Origin: Rhododendron vialii
Taxonomy: Eukaryota > Streptophyta > Magnoliopsida > Ericales > Ericaceae
Direction: 5' to 3'
NCBI RefSeq assembly: GCF_030253575.1
Contig: NC_080558.1
Location: 7,822,001 to 7,886,000, forward strand
Length of the DNA: 64,000 nucleotides
In this document: positions 3,141 to 43,999 of the stretch, in pieces
Layout of the letters: each line of letters opens with the position of its first letter
Position numbering within the stretch: position 1 is the first letter of the stretch
Notes under the pieces: model-generated
Database searches by the model: none
The model's input: the letters and a program-made list of their open reading frames with translations, nothing else
What the model was told of the DNA's origin: nothing
Translations under genes and position numbers: made by a program

Positions 3141-3146
3141 GATTTT

Positions 3147-5060: not shown

Positions 5061-5549
5061 GCGCCACAGAGTGTGAAGATTCAATTTGGGTCGTCCGATC
5101 CAATTGAGGTAGTGCGATGTCATTCTGTTCAACAGCTTGAGGGCAGCATCTGTGCCAAGGCAAAAGTAGATGACAAGGATGGCGAAGGATGGACCCTTGT
5201 TACTCGCAGAAAGAAGAAGTGCGAGCTAAAAGTGAAGCATCCTCAATCCGTGGCCCCAAAGCCTAGTCTCAGAAGGAGGCATACAAGAAGGCAACAAAGA
5301 AAGAAGAAGCTGAAGAAAATAGCTTCAAACTTGAAAGAAGACATCCCTGTCCAAAGACTACGCACTCCGTTTACTTTATGGGACTTCTTACCCGAATCAA
5401 TTCGCAACACCAGTCTTTTTGAAGCTTCATGCAATACTGTGAGTTGTGAAGAAACTGAAGAGACGGAACTAGAGTCGCCTCTTGCATATAAGCACTCTCC
5501 AATCCATCTTGGCTCTACCATCTGTGCCAAAGATTGCTCTGCTCGCGTT

Positions 5550-5960
5550 GGAGCCATTACACTCTCCGACGAAGATTTATTGCTTGGCGCAACTCCACAT
5601 AATCGTCCGCTTTTTGTCTCTGGATACCTATGCAAACAAAGAGTCAATAGGATGCTCCTGGATGGTGGATCTGCGGTCAACATCTTGCCTCTTCATACTC
5701 TGAAGGAACTCAATATCTCTATGGCAGATCTAGCACCTAGTCGTCTCATGATCCAAGGATTCAATCAAGGGGGGCAAAGAGCTGTTGGCGTCATTCGTCT
5801 GGATTTAGTCATCGATGATATGACTTCAAGCGCACTGCTCCATGTCATTGATGCCAAAACCTCTTACAATGTAATGCTAGGGCGGCCGTGGCTCCATGAG
5901 AATGGCGTTGTCCCATCAACCCTCCATCAATGCTTCAAGTACTGCAAAGATGGTGTGACA
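5550..5960 (+). pseudogene. Protease region of the Tat element
   Basis: Aspartic protease-type region that would process the element's polyprotein. It shows LLDGGSAVNILPLHTL, a variant of the retropepsin D-S/T-G-A active-site loop, followed by a flap-like region and the family motif VMLGRPWLH. Part of a coding region that is broken overall. The function follows from family knowledge. Confidence 0.75.
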
Positions 5961-7279: not shown

Positions 7280-8200
7280 CACCCTTGAAGAAGAAATTGC
7301 CTACACCGAGCTTCTACGTGAGTATAAGGACGTCTTCGCTTGGAGTTATAAGGAGATTCCTGGATTAGACCCAAGAGTCGCAGTCCATCATCTAGCGGTA
7401 AAGCATGGCATCAGACCTATCAAGCAATCTCAAAGATGCTTCCGACCAGATTTGGTCCCTAAAATCGAAGCAGAGATCAATAAACTCATCAAAGCTGGTT
7501 TCATTCGAGAAGTCAAATACCCTACTTGGATTTCAAGCATCGTCCCAGTGAAAAAGAAGAATGGGCAAATCCGAGTATGTGTGGACTTTCGTGATTTGAA
7601 CAACACATGTCCGAAAGATGACTTCCACTCCCTATACCAGAGCTCATGGTTGATGCCACTACTGGACATGAGGTCTTATCATTCATGGATGGTTCATCTG
7701 GATATAATCAAATTCGCATGGCTCCGCAAGATGAAGAGCTCACAGCTTTTCGTACACCAAAATGCATCTACTGTTACAAAGTTATGCCTTTTGGCTTGAA
7801 GAACGCAGGTGCCACATACCAAAGAGCAATGCAAAAGATCTTCGATGACGTGCTTCACAAAAATGTGGAGTGTTATGTCGATGATTTAGTCGTGAAGACC
7901 AAGAAACGAGCCGACCATCTTCATGATCTGAGGCAAGTGTTTGAGCGGCTGCGAAGGTACCAACTTAGGATGAATCCCTTGAAGTGTGCTTTTGGGGTTA
8001 CGTCTGGAAAGTTTCTTGGGTTCATTGTGCGCCACCGTGGCATAGAGATTGAACAAGCTAAAATTGACGCTATCTTGAAAATGCCTGAACCTCGAAACAT
8101 TCACGAGTTGAAGAGTCTTCAAGGACGATTGGCTTACCTTCGTCGCTTCATATCAAATTTGGCTGGGCGTTGTCAACCATTCAGCCGCCTCATGAAGAAA
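7280..8200 (+). pseudogene. Reverse transcriptase region of the Tat element
   Basis: Ty3/gypsy reverse transcriptase signatures are present: a palm and fingers stretch with VPVKKKNGQIRVCVDFRDLN, then MPFGLKNAGATYQRAM and the catalytic YVDDLVVK. It would copy the element RNA into DNA. The region belongs to a broken coding region and is described only as a fossil. Confidence 0.85.
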
Positions 8201-8289
8201 GGGACTTCTTTTGATTGAGATGAAGCATGCGATAATGCCTTCAAGAACATTAAATCATATTTGACGAGACCACCTGTTCTCACCGCTCC

Positions 8290-9045
8290 TAAACCTGGAT
8301 GACCTTTAATCTTGTATGTTGCAGCCCAAGAGCGTTCAGTGGGGGCCTTGCTTGCTCAAGAGAATGATGAAGGGAAAGAAGGCGCCTTGTACTACTTGAG
8401 TAGAATGATGCTACCTCATGAATTGAACTATTCTACAATTGAGAAGATGTGCTTAGCTCTAGTGTTCGCAATTGAAAAGATGCGACACTATTTTCAAGCT
8501 CACACTGTGCATCTCATCTCCAAGGCTAACCCAATCAAATACGTCATGACAAAGCCGGTCCTCACCGATCGATTGGCAAGATGGTCTCTTCTCTTTCAAC
8601 AATACGAGATCATCTATGTACCTCAAAAGGCTGTTAAAGGGCAGGCTCTAGCTGATTTTTTGGCGGATCATCCTATACCAGCCGAGTGGGAGTTGTCCGA
8701 AGAATTGCCTGATGAAGACGTCATGGTGGTAGAAGTTCGTCCCCCATGGATAATGTACTTTGATGGTGCGTCACATCGAAATGGCGCAGGCGCTGGCGTA
8801 GTATTTGTTTCCCCAGAAGGAGATGTATTGCCTTATGCTTTCACCCTCACACAAAATTGTTCAAACAATGAGGCTGAGTACCAAGCTCTCATTCTTGGAC
8901 TGGAGATGGCAGTTGAAGCAAAACATCTGCAACTCAAGGTATATGGAGACTCAATGTTGATCATCAACCAACTCCTCAACATCTATGAAGTGAGGAAGCC
9001 TGAACTCATGCCTTTCAATAACTACGCACGTCACTTGATTGCATG
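8290..9045 (+). pseudogene. Double RNase H region of the Tat element
   Basis: Two RNase H modules follow one another. The first is the usual gypsy RNase H (around 8310-8680, ALYYLSRMM ... NYSTIEKMCLALVFA). The second is an archaeal-type RNase H (around 8740-9040, MYFDGASHRNGAGAGVVF ... NNEAEYQALILGL ... VYGDSMLIINQL). The second module is the diagnostic acquisition of the Tat lineage. Confidence 0.85.
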
Positions 9046-9217
9046 ACTTGGTGGTGTCACTCTGGAACATGTACCGTGAGGCGAAAATAGGCAGGCTGAC
9101 GCACTTGCAAAGCTTGCTTCTACACTTGCTTTTCCTGACCAAGAGACGCACGTTCCAATATGCCGAAGTTGGGTCATACCTCCAATCTTTGACGATGAAG
9201 GCAATGGTGAAAAAGAA

Positions 9218-10501
9218 GTGAATGTTGTCTCAGTGCTTGAAATTGAAACAGAGGATTGGCGCCAACCCCTTATCGATTATCTGCAACATGGGAAACTGCC
9301 TGATGATCCACATAGGAGAGCGGATGTGAAGCGTCGAGCCCCTCGATTCATTTACTATAAAGACACGCTTTACCGCCGATCTTTTGAAGGGTTATTCCTT
9401 CGTTGCCTTGAAGAAAATGAAGCCAAAAAAGCTCTGGAAGAAGCTCATTCTGGCATATGTGGCGCTCATCAATCTGGCCCAAAACTTCATTTTCGCATCA
9501 AAAGAATGGGCTACTATTGGCTAACCATGGTCAAGGATTGCATGGAGTACGCTAAGAGATGTCATGCTTGCCAAGTCCACGCCAATTTTATACATCAACC
9601 GCCAGAACTGCTCCATCCAACTGTCACTTCTTGGCCTTTTGATGCATGGGGGATGGATGTCGTGGGGCCCTTGCCGAAGTCTTCTGATGGTCACTTGTAC
9701 ATCTTGGCTGCGACTGACTACTTCTCCAAATGGGCGGCGGCAATCGCGCTGAAAGAGGTAAAGAAGGAAAATGTCGTCAACTTCATCCGTACTCACCTCA
9801 TCTTTAGATATGGTGTACCGCGTTGCATCATCACGGACAACGGAAAGAATTTCTACAACAGTGCCATGGCCAGACTTTGCCAAAAATTTGGCTTCAAGCA
9901 GCATACCTCTACTATGTACAACCCGCCTGCAAATGGTCTTGCGGAAGCATTTAACAAGACTCTTGGAAACTTATTGAAGAAAGTAGTTGCCAAAGCAAAT
10001 AGGGATTGGCCTGAGAGAATGGAAGAAGCTCTTTGGGAGTATCGAACCACATATCGAACACCTACACAAGCCACTCCATATGCGCTAGTGTACGGTGTGG
10101 AAGCTGTTTTGCCGCTCGAACGTCAAATCCCATCTTTAAGGATGGCTGTTCAAGAAGGTCTCACTCATGAAGACAATGCTCGCTTGCGCCTTGAAGAACT
10201 AGAAGCACTTGATGAAAAGAGACTTGAGGCACAACAACGTCTTGAGTGTTATCAAGCCCGCATGTCAAAATCATTCAACAAGAAGGTTCGTCTTCGTTCT
10301 TTCCAGAAAGGGGATTTGGGTCTTCCTGTAAGAAGGTCCATCAATACCACCCATAAAATCGGTGGCAAATTCATCTCCAAGTGGGATGGACCATATGTGG
10401 TGCAAGAAGTTTACTCAAGTGGCGCCTACAAAGTGGTTGCTGAAGATGGCTTAAGAGTTGGCCCCATAAATGGCAAATTCTTGAAGCGCTACTACCCTTG
10501 A
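9218..10501 (+). pseudogene. Integrase region of the Tat element
   Basis: The region contains the H-H-C-C zinc-binding module (AHSGICGAHQSG ... CHACQVHA), the DDE core (MDVVGPLPKSSDG, ITDNGKNFYN, and the ANGLAEAFNKT segment with the catalytic E) and a C-terminal chromatin/DNA-binding stretch ending near 10501. It would insert the cDNA, leaving the 5-bp AGCTT duplication seen here. It belongs to an element whose coding region is broken overall. Confidence 0.85.
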
Positions 10502-19271: not shown

Positions 19272-19315
19272 CTTGTGGCGCAAGTTTCCTTTAGTGTTAT
19301 TTGAGCTATAAAAAG
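19272..19315 (+). promoter_or_regulatory. Core promoter of peptide gene A
   Basis: A TATA box, CTATAAAAAG (TATA starts at 19307), lies 49 bp before the ATG. A conserved element, CTTGTGGCGCAAGT (19272-19285), ends 21 bp before the TATA box. Close variants sit at the same distance in copies C and D. Only about 50-90 bp of ancestral upstream sequence remains before the SINE/solo-LTR junction. Confidence 0.65.
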
Positions 19316-19355: not shown

Positions 19356-21228
19356 ATGGCTTTAAAAATGCTTTTTGTCGTTTGGAAAGTCCTTTTGTTC
19401 TGTACCCTTCTCTTGGCTTTTCAGGTGGCTGCTAGGGAACTGCTCCAAACTTCCCCTGTTCCTAGTGAGTTTTCGATCCCCTCTTATGTTATTTACTTGA
19501 TCCGAAATTAATAGAAAATGCTAGAATACCAACTATAAACTATATATAGGGGAACTTAAATATGAGTCATTTCCTATATAAATACTTAAGACTTCATCCT
19601 AGTGGGTTTGAAAACTTATTTTTCTATCCTCAAATTCAAATAAATCCTAAATTACCCTTTCTCTCTCCTAATCTTTGAAATCTTTCACTCTCCTTATCCT
19701 TCCTAATTTATCTCCTATCTTTATCTCCTAATCTTCTCTCTCCGATTTTCTCTCACCTAAATCTAAAAACAAGATTTAAAATTTGAAAATGAATATTCAT
19801 GAACAAGAGTGTATATAGATTAGTAACAACATACAAGTAAGTTTGATGCAGATAAAAACATGATACTTTTAGTTTGTTCATACATCCATAACACTTTATA
19901 TAGATTTTCTTTAAGAAACTAATTCTAACAATTTATTATTATTCAATACTTAGATATCAATAATCCCTAATAGGTATATGAACTAATGATGTCTTCAAAG
20001 TTTCACGTGTTTTCGTTAACATGATCAATTCAAAAACATGACAAAATTCTAAAAACATGATACCTACAATGATACTTTTAGTAAGTTCGATGGATTTAAA
20101 TTACTAACATGACACTTTTCAGAAAACGTCATACTTTTAGTAAGTTCGATGCAGATAAATTATTAACATGATCAATTCACGAGCATGACAAATTTAAAAA
20201 AAAATGATAATGATACTTTTAGTAAGTTCGATGCATTTAAGTCAATAAGTTCGATGAAGATAAATAACTAACATGATTCTTTTCGAAAAATGCGATACTT
20301 TTAGTAAGTTTGATACAGATAAATTACTAACAAGATCAATTCACGAACATGACAAACTTCGAAAAAATATGATACAATGATACCCATTGCAACCCATCAT
20401 TTCGACCAAACACATACAAATTAAATAAATCAACTTGTAAAATCTGATTTGATGGTGGGTTGACGGCACCACGATTCGATCTCAATCAAACCATAGACAC
20501 ACATGCAATACACCCATTAAATTGATTCGTAAATAAAAATTTGTGAAACTCATACATACATTAAACCAATCTATTTGGAAAAATTAAAACCATACGTTGT
20601 TTTCGACATTTCGTCTCTCTTGAATATTCAACGTCGGCAACGGAGGGGAACGAGACCGGGGCTTGAGTGGAGAACAGCGGCTTGCACCGTTGTCATTTGA
20701 GATGGACGTCATTCCAATGAAGATCAACATCGTGCAATAAAAACCCATAAAACCCAATTCTCTCTCCACAACGCACCGCCGGAGCCAAGCGTCCGTCACC
20801 ACCGTCAAATATTAATAGCTTTACAAACTGGCCGTGTTAGAGCCGACGATGCCATAATTGGAGATGCTAAAGACACAGGAGATGTGGCGGTAGAAGATTA
20901 GAAGATTTGACTGATGGAGATTCTACTCAGTTGGATGGAGATGGGTCTTATACGGAAATGGGTTTGAGCTTTGAACCAAAATGGTGTTTCTGTTGGTGTG
21001 GAAGTTCACGGCTTGGAAAGAGTAAATGAGAAAGCCAAAAATTGTGGGTATGTTGATAACTGTCTTGCTGAAAATGAGGGAACTCAAGGTGAGGAGGTTA
21101 TAAAAATTAGGAGAGAGAAAGGGCATTATGGGGTTTATTTGAATTTGAGGATGCCAACTTAATGATTCAAACCCATTAGGATGGTGGCATAAATAAGTTC
21201 ATCAAATAGGATGGCTATTTAATTTCTT

Positions 21229-21295
<67 letters not shown>

Positions 21296-22045
21296 GATAT
21301 GCACCCTTCAATGAATAGAATTTTATGATTCTTTGATACGATTTCGTAACCTTATTCTTAAATTCGCAACTTTGTTTACAAATATATGATATTCGCGTAT
21401 ACATTCGAGAAAATAACCTTGACTTCATAAGTTTTTAAGTTATGAGATTTTGTCTTGATGTTGTGAATTGTTTTTACGAAGGTGATGAATTTCCCACGTA
21501 TTTTATGTATTTTTATGCAAAGGTTGATTATGAATTTAAGGCGATTAATTCAAGAATTGCATACTGTACACCTCCGAATAAGGGGATCCGTATATTGTAG
21601 CAATTTTGAGAACAATTCTCGGAAATTTCAGCCATAATGGTGATATTTTTGTCCCCTCTGGATCAAATGTGACATAATTGGATACTTTTTATGTATTTGC
21701 TCAATTTATCTCGACCAAAAGAAACTGGAATAATAACAACAACAAAAATGGACCTTATTTTGAAGATAAAAAAAAAAACGTCGCTGAATATAAGAAAACG
21801 AAACACAAACAATATTGTCGAATTTGATTAGTCTTTTGTTTCTTCTTCTTTCTTTAGTGCCTTTTTAAATGGGGTAGTTTCTGAAAAAGAATTTTATGGT
21901 TCAATAGGAAAGTTATTTTCTTTTTGTTGATTTGCTAAAGAAATGCCATTATTGACTTTGCCCCTTGTCTTGTTCAACAGATATATCACCCTCACCCACG
22001 AAGAAGTTGCGCAAACGCGATGAGCCATGGGGCCATAATCCATGA
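19356..22045 (+). CDS. Small secreted peptide precursor, copy A (PWGH family)
   Basis: Two-exon gene: 19356-19464 and 21981-22045, with a phase-1 intron, donor A|GTGAGT and acceptor TTCAACAG. The product has 57 residues. Residues 1-26 form a clear signal peptide (hydrophobic core LLFCTLLLAFQVAA). The mature part starts RELLQTS and ends in a basic, proline-containing tail, KLRKRDEPWGHNP. There are no cysteines after the signal peptide. The design (short precursor, basic residues before a conserved C-terminal block) resembles plant peptide hormones, but the motif matches none I recognise (CLE, CEP, RGF, PSK, IDA, SCOOP). The 2.5-kb intron holds a MULE-like element and a TA microsatellite; without them it is about the size of the copy C intron. 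Gene prediction strength comes from four homologous copies. Secretion is inferred, function unknown. Confidence 0.8.
19549..21230. mobile_element. MULE-like element in the intron of gene A
   Basis: Long terminal inverted repeats of about 90 bp: the start GGGGAACTTAAAT ... TCCTCAAATT mirrors the end around 21145-21230. They match the ends of the element at 24266-26055. The inner subterminal region (19840-20380) repeats GATACTTTTAGTAAGTTCGA several times. A TATATATA duplication is likely but ambiguous, because the insertion lies in a TA run. No transposase is visible. The centre (20580-20960) is more GC-rich and may be captured host sequence. Confidence 0.75.
21231..21291. repeat. (TA)n microsatellite
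   Basis: About 30 TA units at the right edge of the MULE-like element, inside the intron of gene A. It probably expanded from the TATATATA target site. Confidence 0.9.
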
Positions 22046-22957
22046 AATTTGTTTCATCTCTTTCGGAATAAGAGTCTCCTCATGATCAAGACTAATGTTT
22101 GGGTTTGATCGAGTCTCATATTTGTGGGCAGCTATATATTTTTTCTTTTTCTATACTTTTCTAAAACTAATTAAAAAAATAATAATTTGTATTGAATATT
22201 GTATAAATAACTTCAATTGTAACATTGTCGTTAACTTGTTGTTTCTAGCGTTATGCACACGTTGCAACTTGTAACATTCTTGGACCAACTGCGCTATGAA
22301 AGTGAATAACCATGTTTGACAATCTGCGTGCTATTAATACTTGTGCTGGGCAAGATCATATGAAGCTCCCTAATGTATCATTTCTTAGGTTTGGTTTTTG
22401 TGGGTTTGGGCTCTTCTGTTTGAGCTGGGCTCTTTTTTGGGTGTTTGTTGGTGTCTTGTCAACTTGTTGGTGTTTTTCTTTTTGTGGGGGGTTTTTTGGG
22501 AAAAAAATGTGAGGTGATGTGTAGTGATAGCTGAGGTACTACCATTTATGCATAATGCTCCCACCATAGGATTTCTATTTTGTATTATTTTTATTAATGA
22601 TATGAAAACTTTTCTTTGCTAATGAAAAAAAAGATCATACGAAGCTTCGCTCGGATTTTAACTGAGCTCTCAACCTAGCAAACAGTGAGGTTGATCCTCC
22701 GAATCGTTGGATTCATTGAGCCAAATACAGAGAGATCAAAAATAGATCATGTCCCACCCATAACCATAAGTGTAAATGTTTTTTTTCTTTTTCTTTTTTT
22801 TCCGCCAAAATGCCCCTGGGGCCCCATAAGTGGAAATGTCGCTCCGTAATTTCAGCTTCTGCGATGAAATTCCCGTTGTCAAAAAAATTGGACATTCCAA
22901 CTCTTGATCCCAAATATATCAACCGTAATATTGGTTTAGTGAGATATAGATCATGGT
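22046..22957 (+). repeat. Conserved downstream segment of unit A
   Basis: Homologous to sequence after gene C (29962-30500) and after exon 2 of B (24159-24265 plus 26056-26460). Shared landmarks are CTTGGACCAACTGC and TGTTTGACAATCTGCGTGC, then GAGCCAAATACAGAGAGATC. It includes the 3' UTR of gene A and intergenic sequence. No other gene is seen. It is interrupted by the LINE tail at 22368-22630. Confidence 0.75.
22368..22630 (+). mobile_element. LINE 3' tail insertion
   Basis: A 263-bp insertion ending in an A-rich run. It is flanked by 16-bp near-identical duplications (AAGATCATATGAAGCT at 22352-22367, with one mismatch at 22631-22646). Length and flanks fit a strongly 5'-truncated non-LTR retrotransposon. 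No protein domain survives. Confidence 0.75.
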
Positions 22958-23495
22958 GAATTTCTCCCCTTTTGGGATTTTTCAATCTCCTGATTCTAAA
23001 TTTCGGAGGTTTTCTCTCTTTCCTCTTTCACCCCATCCTCCTTCTCTCCAAACCACCATCCGCCGCCCCTTCCGTCGTGCAGTCCTATGGCTTTTGGGTG
23101 TAGTGGCTTGCAGATCGTGGTTGCCGGAGGCGTCCTCCTCCTGCTGAGTGTGAGATCTTGGTGGGTGGATGAAGTCTATTCCGGTACGGCGGACTCTGTC
23201 TGATTCCGTTACTGGTTTTTTTCTTTTTTCTGGTTCCTTTCTTTGGTGTCCCCTGTGTGGGATTTCTCTTTGTTTGTGGGGCTTCTATCACCCCTGTATG
23301 GGTATTTTTGGTTGTTTTTTGTAGTGCTCCGTCTGTTTGGAGCGATGCATTTAGTTAGAGTTGGGCAGTCTTTGAACAGAGTTTTCCCCTATTTAGTTTT
23401 TTGATCCCTTATTTAGGGATAGAATTTTCTCTTAATGTATTATTTCTTGGATCTTTAATGTCACCTGTTATCATTGTGGAAAAAAAAAAAAACCT
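22958..23495 (+). mobile_element. Retroposed sequence with poly(A), about 540 bp
   Basis: Interrupts the segment conserved at 27180-27250. It is flanked by ATAGATCATGGT (22946-22957) and ATGGATCATGGT (23496-23507) and ends in 13 A. The beginning is CT-rich and then codes like a plant 5' leader (CCACCATCCGCCGCC near 23055). It is either a LINE 3' piece or a processed copy of a host transcript; no known protein is recognised. Confidence 0.65.
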
Positions 23496-23589
23496 ATGGA
23501 TCATGGTTGATTGTGGGGCCCAAGGATTATCAAGGGCAACAACAAGCTCCCTATCCTTCATACCTGTTTGAACAAGAGGAAATACAAGA

Positions 23590-24158
23590 ATATATATGAA
23601 AGCAAAAACATGAGGAATTTTTTAATTATGTTATGTGTTTTTATACAAGGTTAATTATGAATTTAAGGTGATCAATTCAAGAATTGCATACCACATATAC
23701 ACCTCTGAAGAAGGGGTCTACATTGTAGCAGTTTCGAGAACAATTCTCAGTAATTTCAGCCATAATTTTGTCCCCTCTAGATCGAATGTGACATTTTTGG
23801 ATATTTTTTATGTACTTGTTCGGTTTTTTTCGACAAAAAAACCCGGAATACTAACCGAAACATGGACCATATTTGAAGATTAAAAAAAAAAAACGTCACT
23901 GAAGATAAGAAAACGAAACACAAACAATGTCAAATTTGATTACTCTTTTTTTCTTCTTTCTTCAGTGAATTTTTAAATGGGGTAGTTTCTGAAAAAGAAT
24001 TTTATGTTTCAAATTTCAATAGAAATTTTTTATTTTTGTTTTGATTTGCTAAAGAAATGCCATTATTGACATTCCACTTGTCTTGTTCAACAGAGATATC
24101 ACCCTCACCCATGAAGAGGTTGGGCAAACACGATAAGCCATGGAGCCATAACCCATGA
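23590..24158 (+). pseudogene. Peptide gene copy B, exon 2 only
   Basis: Intron sequence and exon 2 (24094-24158, acceptor TTCAACAG) match copies A and C. The tail would read KRLGKHDKPWSHNP then stop, with WSH in place of WGH. Promoter, exon 1 and the preceding R repeat are absent. The left breakpoint near 23610 joins the unit-A downstream segment to intron sequence, with short shared sequence (ACATGA). This looks like an intra-array deletion. It cannot be expressed as a secreted peptide unless a new exon is used. Confidence 0.8.
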
Positions 24159-24265
24159 AATTAATTTCATCTCTTCCGGAATAAGAGGCTCCTCATTAGG
24201 ACTAATGTTTGGGTTCTTGTCTCATATATAGTTGTGGGCTGGTATTCTAGCTTTTCTATATTTTT

Positions 24266-26055
24266 GAACAAATTAAATAGGCATCCTATTTACAAGACTT
24301 ATTTAGGTGTCCATCCTGACGGGTTTGAATACTTATGTTCTCATCCTCAAATTGTCATGTTACACTGTTATACCCCTATCTATATATTAATATTAATATA
24401 TAGAATAATTTAATTTTCTTTAATTACCATGCCCCCCACCCCTCATTTCAGGGATTAGGAAATCCCATTTAAAACCAGTTATGTTCCTATTTTCTCGTCC
24501 TCGTCCAAATCCAATCTTGGGCCGCTGTTCTCCAACCCGCTTCGGTGACCCTCTTCCACAACATTATGTCACTCACTGGTAAACCTCCATCTTCCCCTCT
24601 CTCTCTCTCTCTCTCTCTCTGGTTCGGGCCGTGTTTCTCTTTTAAGCAAAACAAAAAAAAAAATGAAAGAGAAAAGCTTGTACTAGTAGCTATGGCCGAT
24701 CACCTCTACTGTCACCGATCAACCCCACCATCGCCGTCAACCCCATAGTGGCCGGCTGACACCGTCAAATCCATCATCAATTTGGATCACTCTCTCTTGA
24801 TCGATGACGACCATTGCCGCCCGACGCATTCGCCTCTCGATTGCCCGAAGCAAAATTATCATGACAATTGAGGATCAACTATGGCAACCATTTTATGACA
24901 AATTTCGCAAATTCAGCATGTTTTAACATGACACATTTTGGTACAAAATTAGTCAACAATTAGTGAGGATCAACTATGACAACCATTTTATGACAAATTC
25001 TAGCATGTTTTAACATGACACATTTTGGTACAAATCAGGCAACAATCAGTGAGGATCAACTATGACAACCATTTTATGACAAATTCTTCAAATTCAGCAT
25101 GTTTTATCATGACACATTTTGTCACAACATCAGAACAATCAAAATTCCGAAGCACCCAAAAAAAAAAAAAGAAAAAGAATCACGAACAATCAGAATCCAT
25201 GGTAAGTTGAATCAATATGATTCCAACAATGGTTCCTTTCAGTCCCCAAAGAAACAAAATGCTTTAGCTTTTTCGATGGAAACCCAAAAGATTTGTCATT
25301 ACACGAACAAAAGGAGAAGGGAAAATTAAACCCATGAATGAACCAAAGAACAGGAACAATTTTTTTTTTGCTCGGCAAACGGAACAATATTTCCATTTCG
25401 TTAATATTCAAATAACTACCATAATCATCAATCGACGACAGCGTATTTGTGTGTTCTTCCATCGCCAGTCGACTGCGGCATCGCTCCACAAATTAACCAA
25501 TCTCGGCTTTCTACCACTTCTGGTGGCAGAATCGAGGCTTATGTGAGAGAAATTCGACAATGGCCCCGTGAATAACCAGATCTGGTTCGGTGGAAAAGCT
25601 ATTCCATTGTTTTGGACCACCAACTAGAAATTCCATGATTCCAAAACTCTTTCTAGGGCAATGGCAGCGAGGTTGTAGGACGGCTGGACCAACGACAATC
25701 GACGGCGGCGGCGAGGTTACAGTGCGGTGTCATTGGTCAATTGGAAGCCGAGGGGAGAGAGAGACAGAGATAGAGAGGAGAGAGAGTTTTGTGTGATTGT
25801 GGCACACATTATGGGATTGGGGTTTTAAATAGGGGTTTAATGCATCAGAGAGAGGAGTTAAATGATCCATGATTTTCGGTTACAATTTCTTCTTCTTTTT
25901 TATTAAGGGTTAATCAGAAAAAAAATAGTTTCTCCATATTAATTAAGGGTGTTATTGGCATTTTTTGAATATCAGGACGGAGACTTAAGTATTCAAATCA
26001 CTAATGATGGAGACTTAAGTATTACTAGGGGAGAGGACTCCTATTTAACTACCCC
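24266..26055. mobile_element. MULE-like element, 1.79 kb, downstream of copy B
   Basis: Inverted ends related to those of the element at 19549-21230. A perfect 9-bp target duplication TATATTTTT (24257-24265 and 26056-26064) is the size expected for Mutator-like elements. No transposase is found. The interior (24480-25860) is GC-richer, with CT-rich leader-like stretches at both sides, so captured host sequence is possible. Confidence 0.8.
24870..25135 (+). repeat. Three tandem repeats of 86-95 bp inside the MULE
   Basis: Units start with AGGATCAACTATG at 24871, 24966 and 25052 and contain AACATGACACATTTT. They are a subterminal-type array, possibly transposase-binding. Confidence 0.85.
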
Positions 26056-27360
26056 TATATTTTTCTAGCAATTAATAATTGAAAAAAAGAGTAAATTATC
26101 TAATGAAATTGTAGTGAAATCTTGTATAAATAACTTCAATTGTAAAAATTGTCGTTTGTAGTTTCTAGCTTTATGTGGTTGTAACTTGTAACTTGAAACA
26201 TTCTTGGACCAACTGCCTTATAAAAGTGAATAACCATGTTTGACAATCTGCGTGCTATTAATATACGAAGCTTTGCTCCAATTTTAATTGAGCCCTTAAA
26301 CTAGCAATTAAACTCCAAGGTTAATTGGTCCTCCGAATGGTTCGATCCATTGAGCCGAATACAGAGAGATAAAAAATAGGTCATGTCCCGCGCGCCCGTT
26401 AGTGTAAATGTTGCTACGTACTCAGAAATTATACCTCATGACCACATGAATTCACCCAATCATTTTTCTACAAACTTTGTAGCGTAATGATCTTTGGGGC
26501 TGAAAAAAAAAAAAAATTGATCTCTGGGGATATACGGATTCAGAAGCCCTGTAGTGCAGGGGTGCCTTCCAAAGCTGCAAGGCACATCCAAGTCATCCAA
26601 AAGTGTTTTCAACAGTCCGGATTAAAAAGAGTTAAAGAGTTTGTTTTCAATCCGGATCATTGATTTGCTGAGATGAATGGTCCGAATGCGCCCTGCTGAG
26701 AAATGAGTAGTCCATCTTCTTTTTGTACTTCTCCTTTAGTGCAAAGTAACCCCTTGAGTTTTTGGCGAATGAAGTAGAAAAGGAAGAAGCAAAAGAGAAA
26801 AGCATCTTGAGTGTTAATGTCAGGATAAAAACGCAATGTGTCTATAGGAGTAAAGCCATGGTTCCAAAAAAATCCACGAAATAGATTACAATTTCACTTC
26901 ATTTTTTTCTATTGTCCATAGAAAAAATATATTTCCGTTTGAGCAAAAAAAAATAAATAAAATTACACGAGTACATAGTGGAATTAATCAATTTCTCATA
27001 CTTACAAACAATACTCCAAACCAAACACTAGATGAGGAGTTATTAATCGAGTGATCCCCTTCCCCTCCCCGTTTAGGACGTTCCCTTCGTACTCGTACAC
27101 TGTCTCAGCTGGATTTTAGCTTTTGCGATGAAAAATTCCCGTTGTCGAAGAATCGGACATCCCAGCTGATCTTGATCTCAAATATATCAATTGTAATATT
27201 AGTTTAGTGAGATATAGATCATGGTTGATTGTGGAGCCCAAGGATTATCAAGGGCAACAACAAGCTCCCTATCCTTCATATCTGTTTGAACAAGAGGGAA
27301 AAAAAAATGTTTGATAAATTACAAGAATATATACAAAAGCAAAAATATGTCAATGAATTA
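26056..27360 (+). repeat. Downstream segment of unit B with a foldback insertion
   Basis: 26056-26460 and 27110-27320 are homologous to the unit-A segment (22150-22950 and 23500-23590). The stretch 26522-26710 carries CCCTGTAGTGCAGGGGTGCC and TCCGGAT motifs of the foldback family seen at 39841 and 44336. 26711-27100 holds nothing recognisable. No gene is seen. Confidence 0.65.
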
Positions 27361-27389
27361 TAAGAAGATGTGAAGTTTAGGTGAATTTG

Positions 27390-28165
27390 AGGAGTGAGAA
27401 AGATAAGGCATATTGTTCCATTTTTCGTCCTTTATTTTTTCTAATAACAGATTTTCGGACCAGCTTGTGCACAGCTCAATTATTTGTGGGGCCCTAAAAC
27501 AAACGGCTAGGCAATTTTTCAATGGCCCCAATGTTTGGAATGTTTTTTTTTTTTTTGGGTGTGAGTGTGTGTACCACGGCTCAAACCCTTGACATGGCAA
27601 ATGACAACAGAAGATCGAGAAATCAAAGCTTTGGTTGTTCAGAATGTTAATTTGACCTTCATGGGATTCGAACTTACGACTTCTTGATGGCAAGCCTTTT
27701 AATTATTTTTTCATCCCCACTTAGCCAAACCCGATTTCGTTCCGGTTATTGTTTCTTTCTGGTCCTTTAACGAATCTACTTCTTTTTCATTGTCCTTGAA
27801 AAACAAATATATCTTATTCTGTAATGAATCTAGAGAATTTTAAACCATGAACTCTTGGTGTGGTTAATATTCAAAGTCCATCTACCTAACCAATAACTTA
27901 GCGTGATTGCCTTGTAAAAAATACTCTATTTTAAGGCACAAGTACCAAAACTATTGAGGCAAGATCACTTGTCAAAAATGGACAGAAACACATGTTTGAA
28001 GTGTTAATTTCAAAGGTATTCGAGTATGAAGTTTCTCAATATGACCGGGCTTCCCTTCACACTGCAGTTCAAATCAAGATTACAGGAAGCAGTCGTATCT
28101 TGACCGTCATTTTTACGATTAAGGATTCAAATTTGTTGTATACACACAATTCGGTAAGAATTAAA
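27390..28165 (+). repeat. Host repeat R, copy C
   Basis: Nearest to an uninterrupted R copy: it runs from GGCATATTGTTCCATTTTTCG to the AATTCGGTAAGAATTAAA end. It is homologous to 2010-2345 plus 15090-15540 and to 52150-53560. It precedes peptide gene C. A short antisense SINE-like insertion with poly(T) sits at 27543-27650. Confidence 0.8.
27543..27650 (-). mobile_element. Possible SINE fragment in R copy C
   Basis: Absent from the other R copies. On the minus strand it carries AAGGGTTTGAGCCGTGG, like a tRNA box B, and ends in poly(A). Borders are approximate and no duplication was resolved. Confidence 0.4.
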
Positions 28166-28440
28166 CCCTTGTCGCCGTCCGGTATCCCCAAAATTGACCG
28201 CTAAGTAACCGCCAAATCGGCACCCATAAACAATCGGAGGAACCCCGGATGTCAAGAGCCATAAACCCAGCTTCTTCCACCAGCACCGCCGCCTCCAGCC
28301 ATCTCGTTACCATGCCGATCGTTTTTCATAAAGGAAGAAAGAGGGGGAGGAGGAGGAGGAGGAGGCACAGCGGCAGCGCCTCCCCCATCCCCCTAAATTT
28401 CGAGAGCTAGAGAGAGAAGGGGAGAGGAATAGTTTCTAGA
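28166..28440 (+). other. GC-rich insertion upstream of gene C, with (AGG)n
   Basis: Not found in the other units. It contains an AGG microsatellite (about 28339-28362) and CACCGCCGCCTCC-type leader-like sequence. No open frame of substance is seen. Possibly a captured or retroposed host fragment. Confidence 0.45.
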
Positions 28441-28473
28441 GAGAGAAGGGAAGGACCCTGTCTTTGAAGTTTT

Positions 28474-28516
28474 CTTGTTGCCCAAGTCTTCGTAGTATTA
28501 TTGGGGCTATAAAAAG
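28474..28516 (+). promoter_or_regulatory. Core promoter of peptide gene C
   Basis: The element CTTGTTGCCCAAGT (28474-28487) lies 20 bp before the TATA box (28508); the ATG is 51 bp after the start of the TATA box. It has the same architecture as genes A and D. Confidence 0.65.
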
Positions 28517-28558
28517 ACACGAGCCCTATATATCCCCTGTCCTTATGCTTGAGGAAAA

Positions 28559-29961
28559 ATGGATATCAAAATGCTTTTTGTGGTTTGGAAAGTCCTTTTG
28601 ATCTGTACCCTCCTCTTGGCTTTTCAAGTGGCTGCCAGGGAACTGCTCCAGACTTCGGATTCCCTTGTCCCTCGTGAGTTTTCCCCTCTTATATCTGTTT
28701 ATTTACTTTAGGCTTGTGAATGGGCTGAATTCGATTCGAATTCGATAAATTCGAATCCGATAATAGTAATTCGAATCTACAAAATTCGGATCCGATCCGA
28801 TCCAAAAACTTTATTTACTTCAAAAATTTTAGCAAAAAAAAAATTCAAAAAAAATTATTTTCCAAAAAAAAATTAAAAAAATTAAAAATTAAAAATAAAA
28901 ATACAACTTCTTAAACAATTTTTTTTTCAAAATAAAAAATTTACAATTTTTTTAATAAAATTTAAAAAATAAAATTTCAGATCGGATTGATAACGGATTT
29001 AATACGATCTAATCTGTATTTGGATTACTGGATTCGGATTATCGGATCGACGTTATTGGATTCGGATCGGATTTTTCAGATCGGATCCGGATCAAATCCG
29101 GTCCATTGACAGGCCTAATTTACTTGATCCGAAAATAATATTCCGAAAATGCTAGAATACCAACTCTTTATATGTATGAGTGTATAAGATATTCACCCTT
29201 CAATGGATAGAATTTTATGATACTTTGATACAAATTCGTAACTTTATTCTTTAATTCGCAACTAATTATTTGTTTACAAAAACATAATCTCGAGTATAAA
29301 TTCGAGAAAATGACCTTGACTTCATAAATTTTTGCACGAGATTTTGTCTCGATGTTGTGAATCTTTTTTTGAATGGTGAAGAAAATTTTATTAAACATAG
29401 GAAATTCGTCATGTTTTGTGAATCTTTTGTACAAACATGATGAATTTCCTACGTATGTTATGTATTTTTATAGTACAAAGGTTAATTATGAATGTAAGGC
29501 GATGAATTCAAGAATTGCATACCGTACACCTCCGAATAAGGGATCTGTATTGTAGCAATTTTGAGAACGATTCTCGGTAATTTCAGCCAAAATGGTGATA
29601 ATTTTTGCCCCCTCTGGAATGTGACATTTTTTATGTTTTTTATGTACTTGTTCGGTTTATCTCGACCAAAAAGAAACTGGAATAATAACCGAAACATGGA
29701 CCATATTTTGAAGATTAAAAAAAAACGTCACTGAAGATAAGAAAACGAAACACAAACAATGTCAAATTTGATTAGTCTTTTTTTCTTATTTCTTTAGTGA
29801 CTTTTTAAATAGGTTAGTTTCTGAAAAAAGAATTTTATGGTTCAATATATAGAAATTGTTTTTTTTTTGCTAAAGAAATTCCATTATTGTCTTGTTCAAC
29901 AGAGATGTCACCTATAGAGAAGTTACGCAGACGCGATGTTCCGTGGGGCCATAACCCATGA
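28559..29961 (+). CDS. Small secreted peptide precursor, copy C (PWGH family)
   Basis: Two exons, 28559-28673 and 29903-29961, with a phase-1 intron (C|GTGAGT, acceptor TTCAACAG), giving 57 residues. The signal peptide (residues 1-26) ends LLLAFQVAA, the mature part begins RELLQTSDS, and the C-terminus is KLRRRDVPWGHNP. Relative to copy A, exon 1 gains two codons and exon 2 loses two, so the length stays at 57 while the terminal motif is unchanged. The intron carries a hAT MITE. It sits directly after R copy C and before a conserved downstream segment, so the whole unit was duplicated. Function unknown; secretion and a peptide-signal role are inferred. Confidence 0.82.
28709..29117. mobile_element. 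hAT-type MITE in the intron of gene C
   Basis: 409 bp, with ends TAGGCTTGTGAATGG and CCATTGACAGGCCTA and an 8-bp duplication ATTTACTT (28701-28708 and 29118-29125). The interior is an AT-rich core between arms full of ATTCGAAT/GATCCGGAT motifs. A second copy lies at 52527-52871. Confidence 0.88.
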
Positions 29962-30720
29962 AATTAATTTCATCTCTTCCGGAATAAGAGGCTCCTCATC
30001 AGGACTAATATTTGGGTTCGAGTCTCATATATAGTTGTGGGCTGCTATTTTTGCTTTTCTATATTTTTCTAGCAATAATTGGAAAAAAAAAAGAAGAGTA
30101 AATTATCTAATGAAATTGTAGTGAAATCCTACTTACCAAAAAAAATTATAGTGAAATCTTGTACTCCATAAATAACTTCAATTGTAACATTGTCGTTTGT
30201 TGTTTCTAGCTTTATGTGGTTGTAACTTGTAACATTCCTAGACCAACTGCCCTATAAAAGCGAATAATCATGTTTGACAATCTGCGTGCTATTAATATAC
30301 ATTTGTTACGATTTTAATTGAGCTCCCAAACTAGCAATTAAACAGCTAGGTTGGTCCTCCTAATGGTTCGATACATTGAGCCGAATACAGAGAGATCAAA
30401 AATAGATCATATATGTCCCGTGCGCCCATAAGTGTAAATGTTGCTACGTGCTTAGAAATTATACCTCATAACATGACCACAATTATAATCGAATGCACAT
30501 TAATTCACCCAATCATTTTTGTACTAAATTTTGTAGCGTAATGATCTCTGGGCTGATAAAACTAAAAATAAAATGACTGATAAAACTAAATATTCATAAT
30601 ATTTGGAGGCAAGAGTACTTGTGAAAAAGGAGAAAACAAATGATTTGAGCCTTGAGGTGTTGATTTCAAAGGGCATTCGTATCATAGAAGTATGCAGTTT
30701 TTCATGAATGCCTCACTTCC
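29962..30720 (+). repeat. Downstream segment of unit C and an R remnant
   Basis: 29962-30500 matches the unit-A and unit-B downstream segments. 30600-30720 holds a remnant of R (GAGGCAAGAGTACTTGT, GTGTTGATTTCAAAGG). No gene is seen. Confidence 0.65.
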
Positions 30721-30791
30721 AAATAAAGGAAAGAATTAAGGGGAAAAAAATAATCATAGTACAAGATTGAAGATTTCAGTACTTTGATTTA

Positions 30792-31466
30792 CTCACTCCG
30801 TCCCCATTTTTTAAGTCTCAGTTACCCCATTTTTTTACTGTACCAAAAATTTTGTCCCACTTTAAAACTATATAGCTAATAGTCAACCAATTTCCCATTT
30901 TACCCTTGTTTTTACTAATTTTGAGGGACACTTTGAATTTCAAAATGACCCCCTTTTTCTCTTTTGTTGGCGCCTTGATTTTCGGAGTGAGAGTTTTATT
31001 CTGTTTTGGGCTCTTATTCTGGCGCCTAAATAGCTGGGAAATCAACCCCAATTGCGTGTGGTTCAGTAGTTCGAGTCTCTCCACTTGTATGTATGTGTTC
31101 TTTTATTTGTATTTGTTGGGGTTGTTTCTCCCCTTAATGAAGTTTGTAGTTGAGTTTGGCTCATAGTGATTGTTGGTCCAATTGTTGGACTTAGTTATCT
31201 CGTAGACTCTCACACAATGGATGCAAATGTCCCGTGATTTGTACTTTATATTTCATACATGATGTAATAATATCTCCTACTAATTGGAAAAAAAGAAAAT
31301 TCAACCCCAACTGACTGATGTAAAAAATGCACTATTCCGCATCAATTTTTTTCCAAAAAGATTGAAGGGTAAAATTGAAAAATCAAGTGATCAAACATGC
31401 AATAATTATGTCTCTTTATTAAATTGAGATCCCGAAAAGAGATTTAAAAACTGGGAACGGAGGGAA
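30792..31466. mobile_element. Stowaway-like MITE with internal insertion
   Basis: Ends CTCACTCCGTCCCC and GGAACGGAGGGAA, with TA at both sides (30790-30791 and 31467-31468). The 675-bp length is unusual for Stowaway. The stretch about 30960-31290 looks like a separate insertion, with a retroposon tail-like end. Confidence 0.65.
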
Positions 31467-31813
31467 TAATTACTTTTTGTTTTCAATGCCTAGGACAACC
31501 GTCATCATATAGGGAAGAGGAATTAAAGAAAACGAACAAATTAAGGTACTTTAAATTTGTTAGGCTTCATTGCACATCTTTTGTTCGAAGTCATCCGAAT
31601 TTGATAAATATAATCTTAGATGTCACTTTACCCTATATTGTCAATTAACTTTAAATTTGATCCCTCAAAGAAATCTTACAAAATTAAAGGGAAAATGTAT
31701 CATGTATTCAGTCACACTATTGAGTTCGCAATTATTGCTCCACTCGTCCCATATTTTTGGTCCTTTATGACAATTTTTAATTTTTTAAGAGGACATGCGA
31801 TCGAATAACGCAT

Positions 31814-32725
31814 TTGAATTTAAATTGGCTTATTAATCTGTTTAGTCCCCAAAGTATTGATCTCGTCTCATTTTTGTCCCTAATGTAAATATTGGAGACA
31901 TTTGGTCCCCAACGTTTCAATTTTGAACCAATCATGTCACCAGGTCTAACGCCATGAGCCCCATCCATTAAAATGAGGGGCATCCTCGTCATATCACCCA
32001 CCCCATTTCTGTCGAACATAAACGAAAAAAATGTCAAACATAAACGGAAATAAAAAAAGAGGAGGAAAGAGGAAAGGCTGCAACTGTAATGGATTTCATT
32101 CCATTACAGTTCTTCAAATCCACCATAAACATCAACACTCCACCACCACTCATCAGTCGCGACGCCTCACCAATCCATACCCCCTCCTCTCCAAAGCCCA
32201 ATCCATACCCCCTCCTCGGCTCCCTTCTCATATTCCTTTCTCTCCTCTTCTTCACTCTCTCCTCCTTCGAACCCACCATTGCCCCCGTCTTCTCCTCTCG
32301 CCGAAACCTCCCCTCTTCCAACCCCCAATTCCTACCCAAACCCAATTACCAAACGCTCCCACATTCCAACTTTCTGGCCTCATGATCATCATATGCATGC
32401 TTTGCAAGGATTGGGGAATTTGTACAGAAAAGGTGCCAAGCCATGAACGAGAAAGAAGAGAGGAGAGGATGGTAGGGGCAGGCAGCGATGGCCATGGCTG
32501 CCGCTGGCTTTCTTTCTTTCTTCTTCTTCTTCTTTTTTTTCAGTTTTTGATTGATAGAAATGGGGGTGGGTAAAACAACGAGGATGCCCCTCATTTTAAC
32601 GGATGGGGCTCACAGCGTTAGATCTGGGAACTTGATTGGTTCAAAATTGAAACATTGAGGACGAAAATGAGATAATTAAAAATCAATATTTGAGAACCAA
32701 AAAAGCCAATAAGCTTTAAATTCAA
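31814..32725. mobile_element. Probable Pack-MULE carrying a host gene fragment
   Basis: Long inverted terminal arms of about 160-200 bp: 31814-32010 mirrors 32565-32725, for example ATGAGGGGCATCCTCGT against its complement. Between them lies sequence of a different base composition. A forward open frame at 32089-32385 (98 codons) has a serine/proline-rich start, a hydrophobic segment (LLGSLLIFLSLLFFTLSSF) and another proline-rich stretch, like the N-terminus of a type II membrane protein. No transposase is seen. Capture of a host exon is inferred; the donor was not identified and no clear target duplication was found. Confidence 0.6.
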
Positions 32726-32979
32726 GGGCATAATTTCCTAATTTACCCCAACTTTCTCTCTCTTTCAAGTACAATTATAGCTAATTTATGATGGATAACT
32801 TTGGAAAGTTACTACTTTTTTTTATTTGACTTAATTTCCAAATAAGGAAAGAATTGAAGGCCAAAAAAGAAAAGAAAGTCTAGCAATATGAAACGGAGGG
32901 AGTAGTTTGGTTACATTAAAACTTGCATTTTTTGCAAAAAGATATTATCACAATAATTTGAATGGAGAATAAATAATAT

Positions 32980-33119
32980 ACACCGGCAGTGTAAATATAT
33001 GTTTACTCCAAATCAATTACATTAGATCATGTAGTCAAAACAATGGTCTCAATTAATAGAACATTGTGATGTGGCGCAATATAATTGATTTGGAAGAAAC
33101 AATATTTACAACGGCGGAG
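32980..33119. mobile_element. 140-bp MITE
   Basis: Inverted ends ACACCGGCAGTGTAAATAT and, on the complement, CTCCGCCGTTGTAAATAT. A near-perfect duplication TAAATAATAT/TAAATAATTT flanks it (32970-32979 and 33120-33129). The 9-10 bp duplication suggests a MULE-derived MITE. Confidence 0.7.
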
Positions 33120-33752
33120 TAAATAATTTAATCTCCGGACGACATGATTAATACATAAACATAAAAACCTAGCCCACCCGCTTAGAACTTATTTGATAGG
33201 TCTGACAAAATTCAAATCTTGAAATTGTAGAAACTTTATATATATCCACGCGACAAACCCATACCCAAATTAATTAAACAGAAAAGTAATTTTTTTTAAA
33301 TCATCACTTTGAAAAGGTATGAAAACAACGACAAATTATACGCGTAGAAATGTCTACTGGTTGAACCGTTGAAGGTCAAGCCCACTTGCATTGAATTTTC
33401 TTAGACATTATTGAATTTTTTGATGTACCATTTCTTTTTGGAGAACATCATTTTTACGGAGGTTTTGGAGAACATCATTTCTTTTTGAGGTTTTCGTAAT
33501 GGGTTTACGGAGCCCAATCGCACGCGTCCAAAAGTGTTTTTAGACGGTCTAGATTGAAAACCAATTTTGACCGGTCAAAAATTGAAAAATAATCTCAATC
33601 ATTAATTGTGGAAACGAACGGTTGCGGTTGTACGATTCTGCAAAAACTTGTTCACAACTCTGCCGTGATTATGTTTCTCTCTTCTTTTTGACCATGCACT
33701 TGCACTAATGCCCTTTGCCTAATTAAAAGTCCAAGTCTTCTGTGAAGACTTT

Positions 33753-33796
33753 CCTGTGGCCCAAGTCATTTTAGTTTTTATTTTGTGCTATAAAAG
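33753..33796 (+). promoter_or_regulatory. Core promoter of peptide gene D
   Basis: The element CCTGTGGCCCAAGT (33753-33766) lies 22 bp before the TATA box (TATAAAAG, 33789-33796); the ATG is 52 bp after the TATA start. Just upstream is a perfect interrupted palindrome AAGTCTTC-TGT-GAAGACTT (33734-33752). Confidence 0.65.
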
Positions 33797-33840
33797 GTCA
33801 TGAACCCTAGATCCCCTTCCCTAATTATACTAAAGAAAAA

Positions 33841-34753
33841 ATGGCTCTGAAAATGTTTTTTGTACTTTGGAAAGTCCTTTTGATCTTTACCCTTGTTTTT
33901 GCTTTGGAGGTGGCTGCAAGGGAACTGCTCGAGACTTCGAATTCCAATGTCCCTCGTAAGTTTGCTTCTCCTTTAGCTTCTCATTTGCTGGAGATACTCT
34001 TACCAAATACTCCCTCCGTCTCATTTTAAATATTTCTTACAAAAAATCTTGCATTTTTCAATCCCCAAAAAATATATTTTTGTGTATAGTTTTTTTTTTT
34101 TGTATTTTTACACCCAATTAAAAATGTGACAGAGGGAGTACATAATAAGGGTTTTTTTTTATTTTTATAAAACAGAATGCTAAATAAGTAGCAAAATACA
34201 CTTTTAAATATAATTTTTACAATATCTGCTCGAGATACTCTTATTTGTCATTCACTTGATCTGAAAACAATTCCCAGGGATGAAGGGCTCGAGCTCCGTC
34301 ATGGGCATTTGTAGTTCAGAACTATGGACAGCCTTTGAACCATCTGTGGAATAACTTACTAACTACTCCTAATCCCCGTTGATCTGCTTGATCAAAAAAA
34401 AAAACTCAATCTTATTACTTTTGAATAGAAATTTTTAACATGTACATATATTCTATAATTTCATAACATCAACCGAATTCATGACATTAATTTATGTGTT
34501 ATGAGTTTTTGTCTCGAGGTCATGAATTTTCATAGAGTTAATATTAATTTCTATGCAAATTTATTATTAATTTTTGTACGTATGCTTTAAAAGAAAAGGT
34601 CACTGAGTTTATCTAAAGCTTAAAGGCATTTTTATATTTTTTTTTGCCCCTAAAGATTGCCATAGTTAACATGTCATTTGTCTTGTTTCAACAGATAAGA
34701 TGCCTATGAAGCTCGCGAAGAGACAGGATGATCCCTGGGGCCACCACATATAG
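33841..34753 (+). CDS. Small secreted peptide precursor, copy D (PWGH family)
   Basis: Two exons, 33841-33955 and 34695-34753, with a phase-1 intron (C|GTAAGT, acceptor TTTCAACAG), giving 57 residues. The signal peptide ends VFALEVAA and the mature part begins RELLETSNSNVP. The tail is KLAKRQDDPWGHHI, the most divergent of the family; the PWGH core and the preceding KR are retained. The 739-bp intron is the shortest and holds a Stowaway MITE and a SINE piece. Being the most divergent yet intact copy, it suggests that the family predates the A/B/C duplications and is under constraint. Function unknown. Confidence 0.8.
34010..34138. mobile_element. Stowaway MITE in the intron of gene D
   Basis: 129 bp, with ends CTCCCTCCGTCTC and GACAGAGGGAG and TA at 34008-34009 and 34139-34140. 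Confidence 0.85.
34277..34404 (+). mobile_element. SINE 3' fragment in the intron of gene D
   Basis: Its 3' half (CTATGGACAGCCTTTGAACC ... TAACTTACTAACTACTC, then poly(A)) matches the end of the SINE at 35656-35827. The head is decayed or truncated. Confidence 0.6.
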
Positions 34754-42862: not shown

Positions 42863-43999
42863 CTACTTCGCAAGATCCAATGTTGCATTATACAACTTCA
42901 ATAGCTCGGGGGCTTCTTCCATCTTATAGCTCAAAACCTTCTTCCGGAACTGCTTTTCAGAAAATTTAGCCATGTACTCAAGCTGATACCATTAGTCTTG
43001 ATTAAACCTTGCAACAACAAAGCTTTATAAACTGCACTCCTCGGAACAATCCTCTTCTCCAAGATTAGTTGTATAATTTTTGGTCTTCTTGCAACCAACG
43101 AAGATTCCCAACCCATTTTTTTAACAAGAAAATCCATCACACGGTTGATCTTATCCTGTGATGCAATCATACAATTTGGATGCTTCTTAAAAGCAACAAG
43201 AATCTCGTCCTGGGTCCAACCCCACTTCTTGTAAACCTCAACCTTCTTCTCCCATGTAGATTTACTCATCCCTCTTAACACACGAATGGCTGACATAAAC
43301 TCCATTTGCGAAGGATTAAAACCCATCCTGTTAACTTCATCCACACAAATCCTAAACCGATTGCTGCTTACAGCGAATGCTCTAGGTCGTCTCGTCAACA
43401 AAAGCCCAATATTGGCATTGGGAACACCTACTTCTCGCAGAATTTCAATATTTGGTATAACATGACTGATGACTTTGATAATCAAAAAAACAAAACCAAG
43501 CACAAAGTCACAATGTCTAATAAAAGCAAGCGCTTTCTCTTCGGATTGAAGAAAATTACCATAGAAAATAAGGAATAATTGAGTTTTCCAAGCTGCGTTT
43601 CAAGATGAATTGTGACATAGACGTTAATCTGGCAATATCTGTGATCGAAAGGCCCTTAGATTTGAGAAACTCATGCTTGGGCAAAAGGGACTTTTGGGGA
43701 TCACGTATTATCACAGGAGGGTACTTTCTAATGGCACTGGAGATCTGGGTTTGGGTGAATCCATGGTTCCTGAAGAATGCCAAGACTGAGTCAGGCTTAT
43801 CTGGAGTCTCAAATTTGACATACTTAGATGCTGAGAGAGCTTTTTCTGGAGACAACCCACACGAGTTTATGAGGTATGTGACCGTGAACGAGTGCTGATT
43901 TGAAGATTTATCCATGGGTTTGAGGGATGTGGAAAAAGGGTGGGTTAGATGATGGCAATAGAAAACATAGGTTGGAGACTTTAGCAGCAGATATTCCAT
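42863..43999 (-). pseudogene. mTERF family protein, frame broken
   Basis: An organellar mTERF-type gene: tandem helical repeats that bind nucleic acid and tune mitochondrial or plastid expression. The minus strand gives an N-terminal transit-like region and then mTERF motifs (SFTVTYLINSCGLSPEKAL, NHGFTQTQISSAIRKYPPVI, KSLLPKHEFLKSKGLS) from 43999 to about 43560. The middle is in another frame (about 43560-42990: SHVIPNIEILREVGVP, GWTQDEILVAFKKHP). The typical C-terminus (KMEEAPELLKLYN) is in a third frame, ending with a stop at 42863. Two frameshifts (near 43565 and 43000) interrupt an otherwise complete gene of about 379 codons. mTERF genes of this type are usually intronless and multi-copy, so this is most likely a recent pseudogene. 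Assembly errors are the alternative. Confidence 0.75.

Follow-up and report, generated by a model that had tools for sequence, protein, structure and literature searches.

What do the short two-exon genes in this part of the Rhododendron vialii genome encode, and do they belong to the plant or to its transposons? The stretch analysed (C2:7822001-7886000, 64,000 nucleotides; hereafter the window) holds three intact copies, A, C and D, and a remnant, B, whose products end in a tail around the motif PWGH. The first-pass annotation had called them a short secreted signal or defence peptide family. The best reading is still a host family, with secretion and the choice of signal or defence kept as predictions. 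A, C and D are probably host genes of a secreted prepropeptide family, for which a signal read by a receptor would be the most likely function. They belong to a real and unusually large secreted-peptide gene family of a known general kind. Searches of the plant's own genome covered the whole assembly (532.6 Mb, 13 contigs), and their match counts are lower bounds.

The gene structures held up exactly as first described: three two-exon genes and one exon-2 remnant, with the same coordinates, GT-AG phase-1 introns and open frames (Table 1). The introns measure 2516 bases in A, 1229 in C and 739 in D. All three intact copies share the donor GT[A/G]AGT and the acceptor CAACAG, and each encodes 57 amino acids (MALKMLFVVWKVLLFCTLLLAFQVAARELLQTSPVPNISPSPTKKLRKRDEPWGHNP for gene A, MDIKMLFVVWKVLLICTLLLAFQVAARELLQTSDSLVPQMSPIEKLRRRDVPWGHNP for gene C and MALKMFFVLWKVLLIFTLVFALEVAARELLETSNSNVPHKMPMKLAKRQDDPWGHHI for gene D). 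Copy B has kept the CAACAG acceptor and an open exon-2 frame that ends in MKRLGKHDKPWSHNP before the stop. No exon-1 match was found between exon 2 of A and exon 1 of C in the own-genome protein searches.

The window is a small part of a much larger array. The gene A protein gave 67 matches at E values up to 10, all of them on the forward strand of C2:7.40-8.82 Mb. A composite protein of a second subfamily gave 94 matches at the same threshold, and 89 of these lay in the same region, again all on the forward strand. They were tallied as 65 exon-1 and 24 exon-2 matches, some of them weak. The other five, four weak ones on C6 and one on C3, showed exon-1 likeness only. The DNA pattern for PWGHNP occurred 22 times in the forward direction and never in reverse, and the reversed control had no match in either direction; 18 of the 22 matches fell within C2:7.40-8.67 Mb. 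Three matches on C3 and C13 had no family context and were put down to chance. The single C1 match (L009 6156-6210, C1:42584185) is a lone exon-2 relic with an internal stop.

Because 89 of 94 matches lie in one region and on a single strand, we regard the copies as one tandem array. Of 44 copies, 34 had a TATAAAA box 35 to 90 bases upstream of the ATG, compared with 32 of 2200 mononucleotide shuffles. The same-strand array and the box close upstream are the behaviour of a host gene family, as had been proposed at first, and not of a transposon. That the repeats are cargo of transposons is hardly credible. Many transposons do lie in and around the genes, but the array has one orientation, the five matches elsewhere resemble exon 1 only, and outside the array there is otherwise just the C1 relic. 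The elements inside the introns also differ among A, C and D.

Gene models were built for 58 exon-1 places; the rest of the 65 exon-1 matches lay outside the fetched DNA or were overlooked by the patterns. An open two-exon frame of 47-66 amino acids was obtained at 36 places. Five of these models were removed (four had lost the homologous acceptor and one was a chimera of two neighbours), leaving 31 models of 50-66 amino acids, and removal of one duplicate coding sequence (CDS) left 30. Four exon-2-like places judged to be chance (three in the window, one in L020), the exon-1 place at 8153159 and exon-1-like exon-2 frames were left out. With model lengths of 50-66, two rules read from the window, exactly 57 residues and a basic (K/R)R tail, hold locally only. 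The length applies to A, C and D, and the basic tail to the window's subfamily; across the 31 models the net charge of the mature part (K+R minus D+E) ranges from -4 to +3, with gene A at +3.

The array has apparently grown in more than one way. Copies at ~8.10-8.67 Mb recur mostly at steps of 128-146 kb, with one step of 213 kb, and the stretch at 7.97-8.03 Mb is repeated near 8.75-8.80 Mb. In the copy pairs compared, the longest stretches were 84-99% identical, most of them above 94%. This spaced recurrence and high identity point to recent segmental duplication, probably laid over older tandem duplication. Some of the near-identical units may be assembly duplicates. Within the window, positions 26426-27614 are ~85% identical to parts of array members L018, L019 and L024.

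The proteins have the layout of a secreted plant signalling peptide: a hydrophobic N-terminal signal, recognized by composition only, a variable linker and a short conserved C-terminal motif. A short conserved motif at the C-terminal end, read by a receptor kinase, is common among plant peptide hormones. Here the motif is the octapeptide D-x-P-W-(G/P)-H-x-P, with D in 27, P in 27, W in 30, G in 24 or P in 6, H in 26, N in 19 and the last P in 28 of the 30 CDS, a tally biased upward by the W-requiring pattern with which exon 2 was located. The octapeptide is the end of the protein in 16 of 30 and is followed by a few residues, such as RHG, in the other 14. The linker varies in length, and three of the 30 have a two-residue insertion after the W. 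Several tail types occur, among them the window type RRDxPWGHNP, the D type DDPWGHHI, a MASSK type (NSDDPWGHNPRHG) and a MGLRK type (DKPWPTDP, DDPWPHNP).

The precursor would be built of a predicted signal peptide of ~26 residues, a short N-terminal part starting at R-E-L, then, after the phase-1 intron of the gene, a fast-changing linker and the conserved octapeptide, sometimes with extra residues. A peptide processed from it would be read by a receptor as a signal. No Pfam family matched at the cut-off. Weaker matches to LEAP-2, defensin propeptide, DUF3302 and GRP were read as signal-peptide likeness. A full-text literature search with PWGH, PWGHN, PWGHNP and DxPWGH returned no paper on a plant peptide, as judged by titles.

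Selection was estimated as the ratio of nonsynonymous to synonymous divergence (dN/dS, or omega in codon models) from exon-wise alignments. Exon dN/dS, put forward in the first-pass annotation as a check on the family, gave a mixed answer: 0.25 for A-C (dS 0.52, dN 0.13), 0.52 for A-D (0.60, 0.31) and 0.85 for C-D (0.35, 0.30). A one-ratio codon model over the whole CDS of the 30 genes gave an omega of 0.68 (p 0.0017). By part, omega was 0.55 (p 0.004) in the signal peptide, 0.66 (p 0.09) in the exon-1 mature part and 0.58 (p 0.08) in the linker. Pooled pairwise ratios of nonsynonymous to synonymous differences (pN/pS) were calculated on a first codon alignment made without the exon boundary, in which gaps were misplaced. 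They were lowest for the octapeptide (0.35, bootstrap 0.24-0.49), followed by the exon-1 mature part (0.54), the linker (0.66, 0.49-0.79) and the signal peptide (0.84). By parsimony, columns of the octapeptide changed less often than those of the linker (Mann-Whitney p 0.026). Purifying constraint is real but weak.

Several of these results weigh against a receptor-read signal, beginning with the weakness of the constraint. For the octapeptide alone omega was 0.87 and not below 1 (p 0.68). The codon model and pN/pS disagree on the tail, as they do on the signal peptide, and the octapeptide did not exceed the exon-1 mature part in conservation (p 0.27). In ten pairs of five genes dN/dS ranged from 0.23 to 1.35, the highest value coming from the close pair C/L018. 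The tail tally is inflated because the exon-2 pattern demands W, and its counts are not independent because the copies are paralogues. At 22 of the 58 exon-1 places there was no open gene: five lacked an ATG, five an in-frame acceptor and two the expected donor form, and the other ten had no exon 2 within the stretch fetched, one of them also lacking the expected donor. It is mainly the layout, and less omega, that speaks for the octapeptide as the active part.

The same results bear on a decaying array, in which most copies would be pseudogenes, or poorly expressed leftovers of segmental duplication, and would have little function today. We consider this unlikely. The places without an open gene agree with it, as do four near-identical copies without an acceptor (L021, L022, L023, L025) and an omega near 0.7, but little DNA had been fetched at ten of the 22 places. 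Against decay, omega is below 1, the TATA box is kept in most copies, and W is present in 30 of 30, though the exon-2 pattern requires it.

Direct action as antimicrobial or defence peptides, with no receptor involved, is a further and quite improbable reading. Defence peptides, too, commonly form large arrays that evolve fast, and the mature part of gene A is positively charged. Over the 31 models, however, the charge shows no steady cationic character, and the exon-wise alignment contains no conserved cysteine in the mature part. In the octapeptide, changes concentrate at two positions (11 and 8), against 0-2 at each of the remaining six, a pattern that suits recognition over bulk membrane action.

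A signal peptide read by a receptor thus remains our preferred explanation, and we compared its tail with those of known families. Close in form are the soybean peptides GmPep914 (DHPRGGNY) and GmPep890 (DLPRGGNY; PMC7730307). Their precursors have 52 residues, with the peptide at the C-terminal end (PMC4621407). They are reported to induce defence genes, with no receptor known and no obvious signal sequence in the precursor (PMC6547358), and to have given Arabidopsis no protection against a fungus (PMC7225342). They resemble the window tails in the register D-x-P-x-G-x-N, where D, P, G and N are shared, in ending at residue 8 and in being the last eight residues of a short precursor. They differ in reading R-G-G-N-Y where the present tails read W-G-H-N-P, and in the missing signal sequence. 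The CLE peptides share P, G, N and P with the window tails, as far as the cited part of PMC5538625 shows. Like the present family, whose secretion is predicted from sequence, they come from a secreted precursor that carries the motif at its C terminus or close to it; the tails can be aligned with them at P4, G6, N8 and P9, and also at H11 in copies ending in RHG. Unlike CLE peptides, the present tails have V3 in only two of 30; in six, proline replaces G6, and 16 end at position 9. Exchange of glycine 6 for proline in CLV3 makes plants resemble clv3 mutants, according to the passage cited from PMC7552357.

Membership in either family is very unlikely. Scored against shuffled mature parts, one of 30 proteins reached p<0.01 with the GmPep914/890 matrix (median p 0.29) and one of 30 with a CLE matrix of 16 peptides (median p 0.10), so neither membership is shown. 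In favour of a relationship are the common register and end, and the tail of gene C, RDVPWGHNP, which scored 13.8 bits on the CLE matrix with a shuffle p of 0.001. Against it, the pattern DxPRGxNY-stop had no match in the plant's own genome, and six of 30 tails carry the proline at CLE position 6. The GmPep914/890 octapeptide D-x-P-R-G-G-N-Y was not found in the family, which has W, H and P at three fixed positions, nor did the matrix test on the 30 proteins recover the CLE dodecapeptide R-x-V-P-x-G-P-[ND]-P-[LI]-H-[NH]. The tail appears, on sequence comparison, to fit none of the families tested here. The first-pass annotation had not recognized the motif from known plant peptide hormones, yet it has some likeness to them, the P-x-G-x-N register being common to GmPep914/890 and CLE.

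Exon 1 also has relatives outside the family. In glycine-rich-protein-like genes on C6 (34.547-34.604 Mb) and C3 (C3:5638039; L061-L065), five places resemble it, e.g. MGSKTFVLLGLLLAAVLLITSEVTARDLVETS, with ARDLVETS or alike. They differ from the family in that a glycine-rich frame follows exon 1 at two of the five (L064, L065), and no PWGH-stop tail was seen within the 1.4-1.8 kb fetched. The two kinds of exon 1 possibly share an origin.

Two systems offer parallels in organization. In the passages cited from PMC8448819, 12 of at least 23 PROSCOOP genes stand in tandem on Arabidopsis chromosome 5, and plant SCOOPs are confined to Brassicaceae. On that account, SCOOP and its receptor MIK2 resemble the present case in fast-duplicating secreted precursors, a C-terminal motif and tandem growth, and the present array contains MIK2-like sequence. 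The motifs differ, since SCOOPs carry SxS, which by eye was present in exon 2 of two of our 30 genes and off the conserved place. In poplar, genes of RISP small proteins are interspersed with leucine-rich repeat (LRR) receptor genes (cited part of PMC3975113). This provides an earlier example of a proposed ligand encoded next to receptors; the receptors there are receptor-like proteins (LRR-RLP), and the two cases are likened by gene arrangement alone.

The MIK2-like sequence in the window is an LRR receptor kinase gene on the reverse strand (Table 1). When compared with proteins of solved structure only, its N-terminal 131 amino acids had MIK2 as all seven best distinct sequences, and its 880-amino-acid main part scored 517.9 bits with At4g26540 and 505.8 bits with MIK2. 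Among the fetched loci, close relatives of the kinase occurred only in L011 (82-83% identity) and L015 (72-82%); L003 and L007 are the same two places. The L011 kinase (8391-9898, C2:7470690 on) changes frame between matched parts, and the L015 kinase (from 8359, C2:7630358 on) is short. Each begins ~1.4 kb downstream of a peptide gene (C2:7.470 and 7.630 Mb). L009 on C1 contains a distant kinase match with 31% identity. With MIK2-like sequence at three of the places fetched from the array, two of them ~1.4 kb 3' of peptide genes, the array could be a locus of genetically linked ligands and receptors in an arms race. In that case the D-x-P-W-G-H-x-P peptides would be candidate ligands of the embedded MIK2-like kinases, and the ~65 exon-1 copies in 1.4 Mb a lineage counterpart of Brassicaceae SCOOP-MIK2 with an unrelated motif. 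We offer this tentatively and regard it as rather doubtful.

A separate transposon had been reported for each intron, which the sequence bears out: a long element with terminal inverted repeats (TIR) in A, an insertion with an 8-base duplication in C and a miniature inverted-repeat transposable element (MITE) in D (Table 1). The C element, which we take to be hAT-like, is bordered by the 8-base repeat ATTTACTT, a target duplication, and the repeat stands single in A at 19491-19498, the empty site. The D element is presumably Stowaway-like. The 3' parts of introns A (21295-21980) and C (29171-29902) are 88.6% identical (570/643), yet dS in the exons is 0.52; gene conversion or few silent sites could explain this.

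Table 1 Features of the window, with positions counted from its first nucleotide.
Feature	Position	Strand	Remarks
Gene A, TATAAAA box	19307-19313	+	49 bases 5' of ATG; read in sequence
Gene A, exon 1	19356-19464	+	109 bases; signal peptide and mature start RELLQTS
Gene A intron, long-TIR element	19552-21226		Arms 19552-19683 and 21095-21226, 72% complementary
Gene A, exon 2	21981-22045	+	65 bases; linker and C-terminal DEPWGHNP
Copy B, exon-2 remnant	24094-24158	+	DKPWSHNP; gene A protein match, E 0.013
Gene C, TATAAAA box	28508-28514	+	51 bases 5' of ATG; read in sequence
Gene C, exon 1	28559-28673	+	115 bases
Gene C intron, insertion	28709-29117		Ends TAGGCTTGTGAATGG...CCATTGACAGGCCTA; read directly
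Gene C, exon 2	29903-29961	+	59 bases; linker and C-terminal DVPWGHNP
Gene D, TATAAAA box	33789-33795	+	52 bases 5' of ATG; read in sequence
Gene D, exon 1	33841-33955	+	115 bases
Gene D intron, MITE	33996-34152		Ends CTCCCTCCGTC; inverted arms 33996-34031 and 34117-34152
Gene D, exon 2	34695-34753	+	59 bases; linker and C-terminal DDPWGHHI
LRR receptor kinase gene	46915-50033	-	Main part 47391-50033, kinase tail 46915-47316; candidate receptor

Elsewhere the window contains open frames like those of a long terminal repeat retrotransposon, with gag, RNase H and integrase domains (3090-10501, forward strand), and an mTERF family gene in two open pieces (42931-43999, reverse strand). A DDE_Tnp_4 transposase piece (55815-56216) and a tnp2 transposase (59597-61315) lie on the forward strand.

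Taken as a whole, the family is most likely phytocytokine-like and expanded by tandem and segmental duplication. It is apparently peculiar to this plant's lineage and presumably absent elsewhere. If the pairing with the embedded kinases were true, the MIK2 branch of receptors would gain new ligands from one lineage to the next. Orphan receptor kinases, for which no ligand is known, are numerous, and the array offers a short list of peptides together with one candidate receptor.

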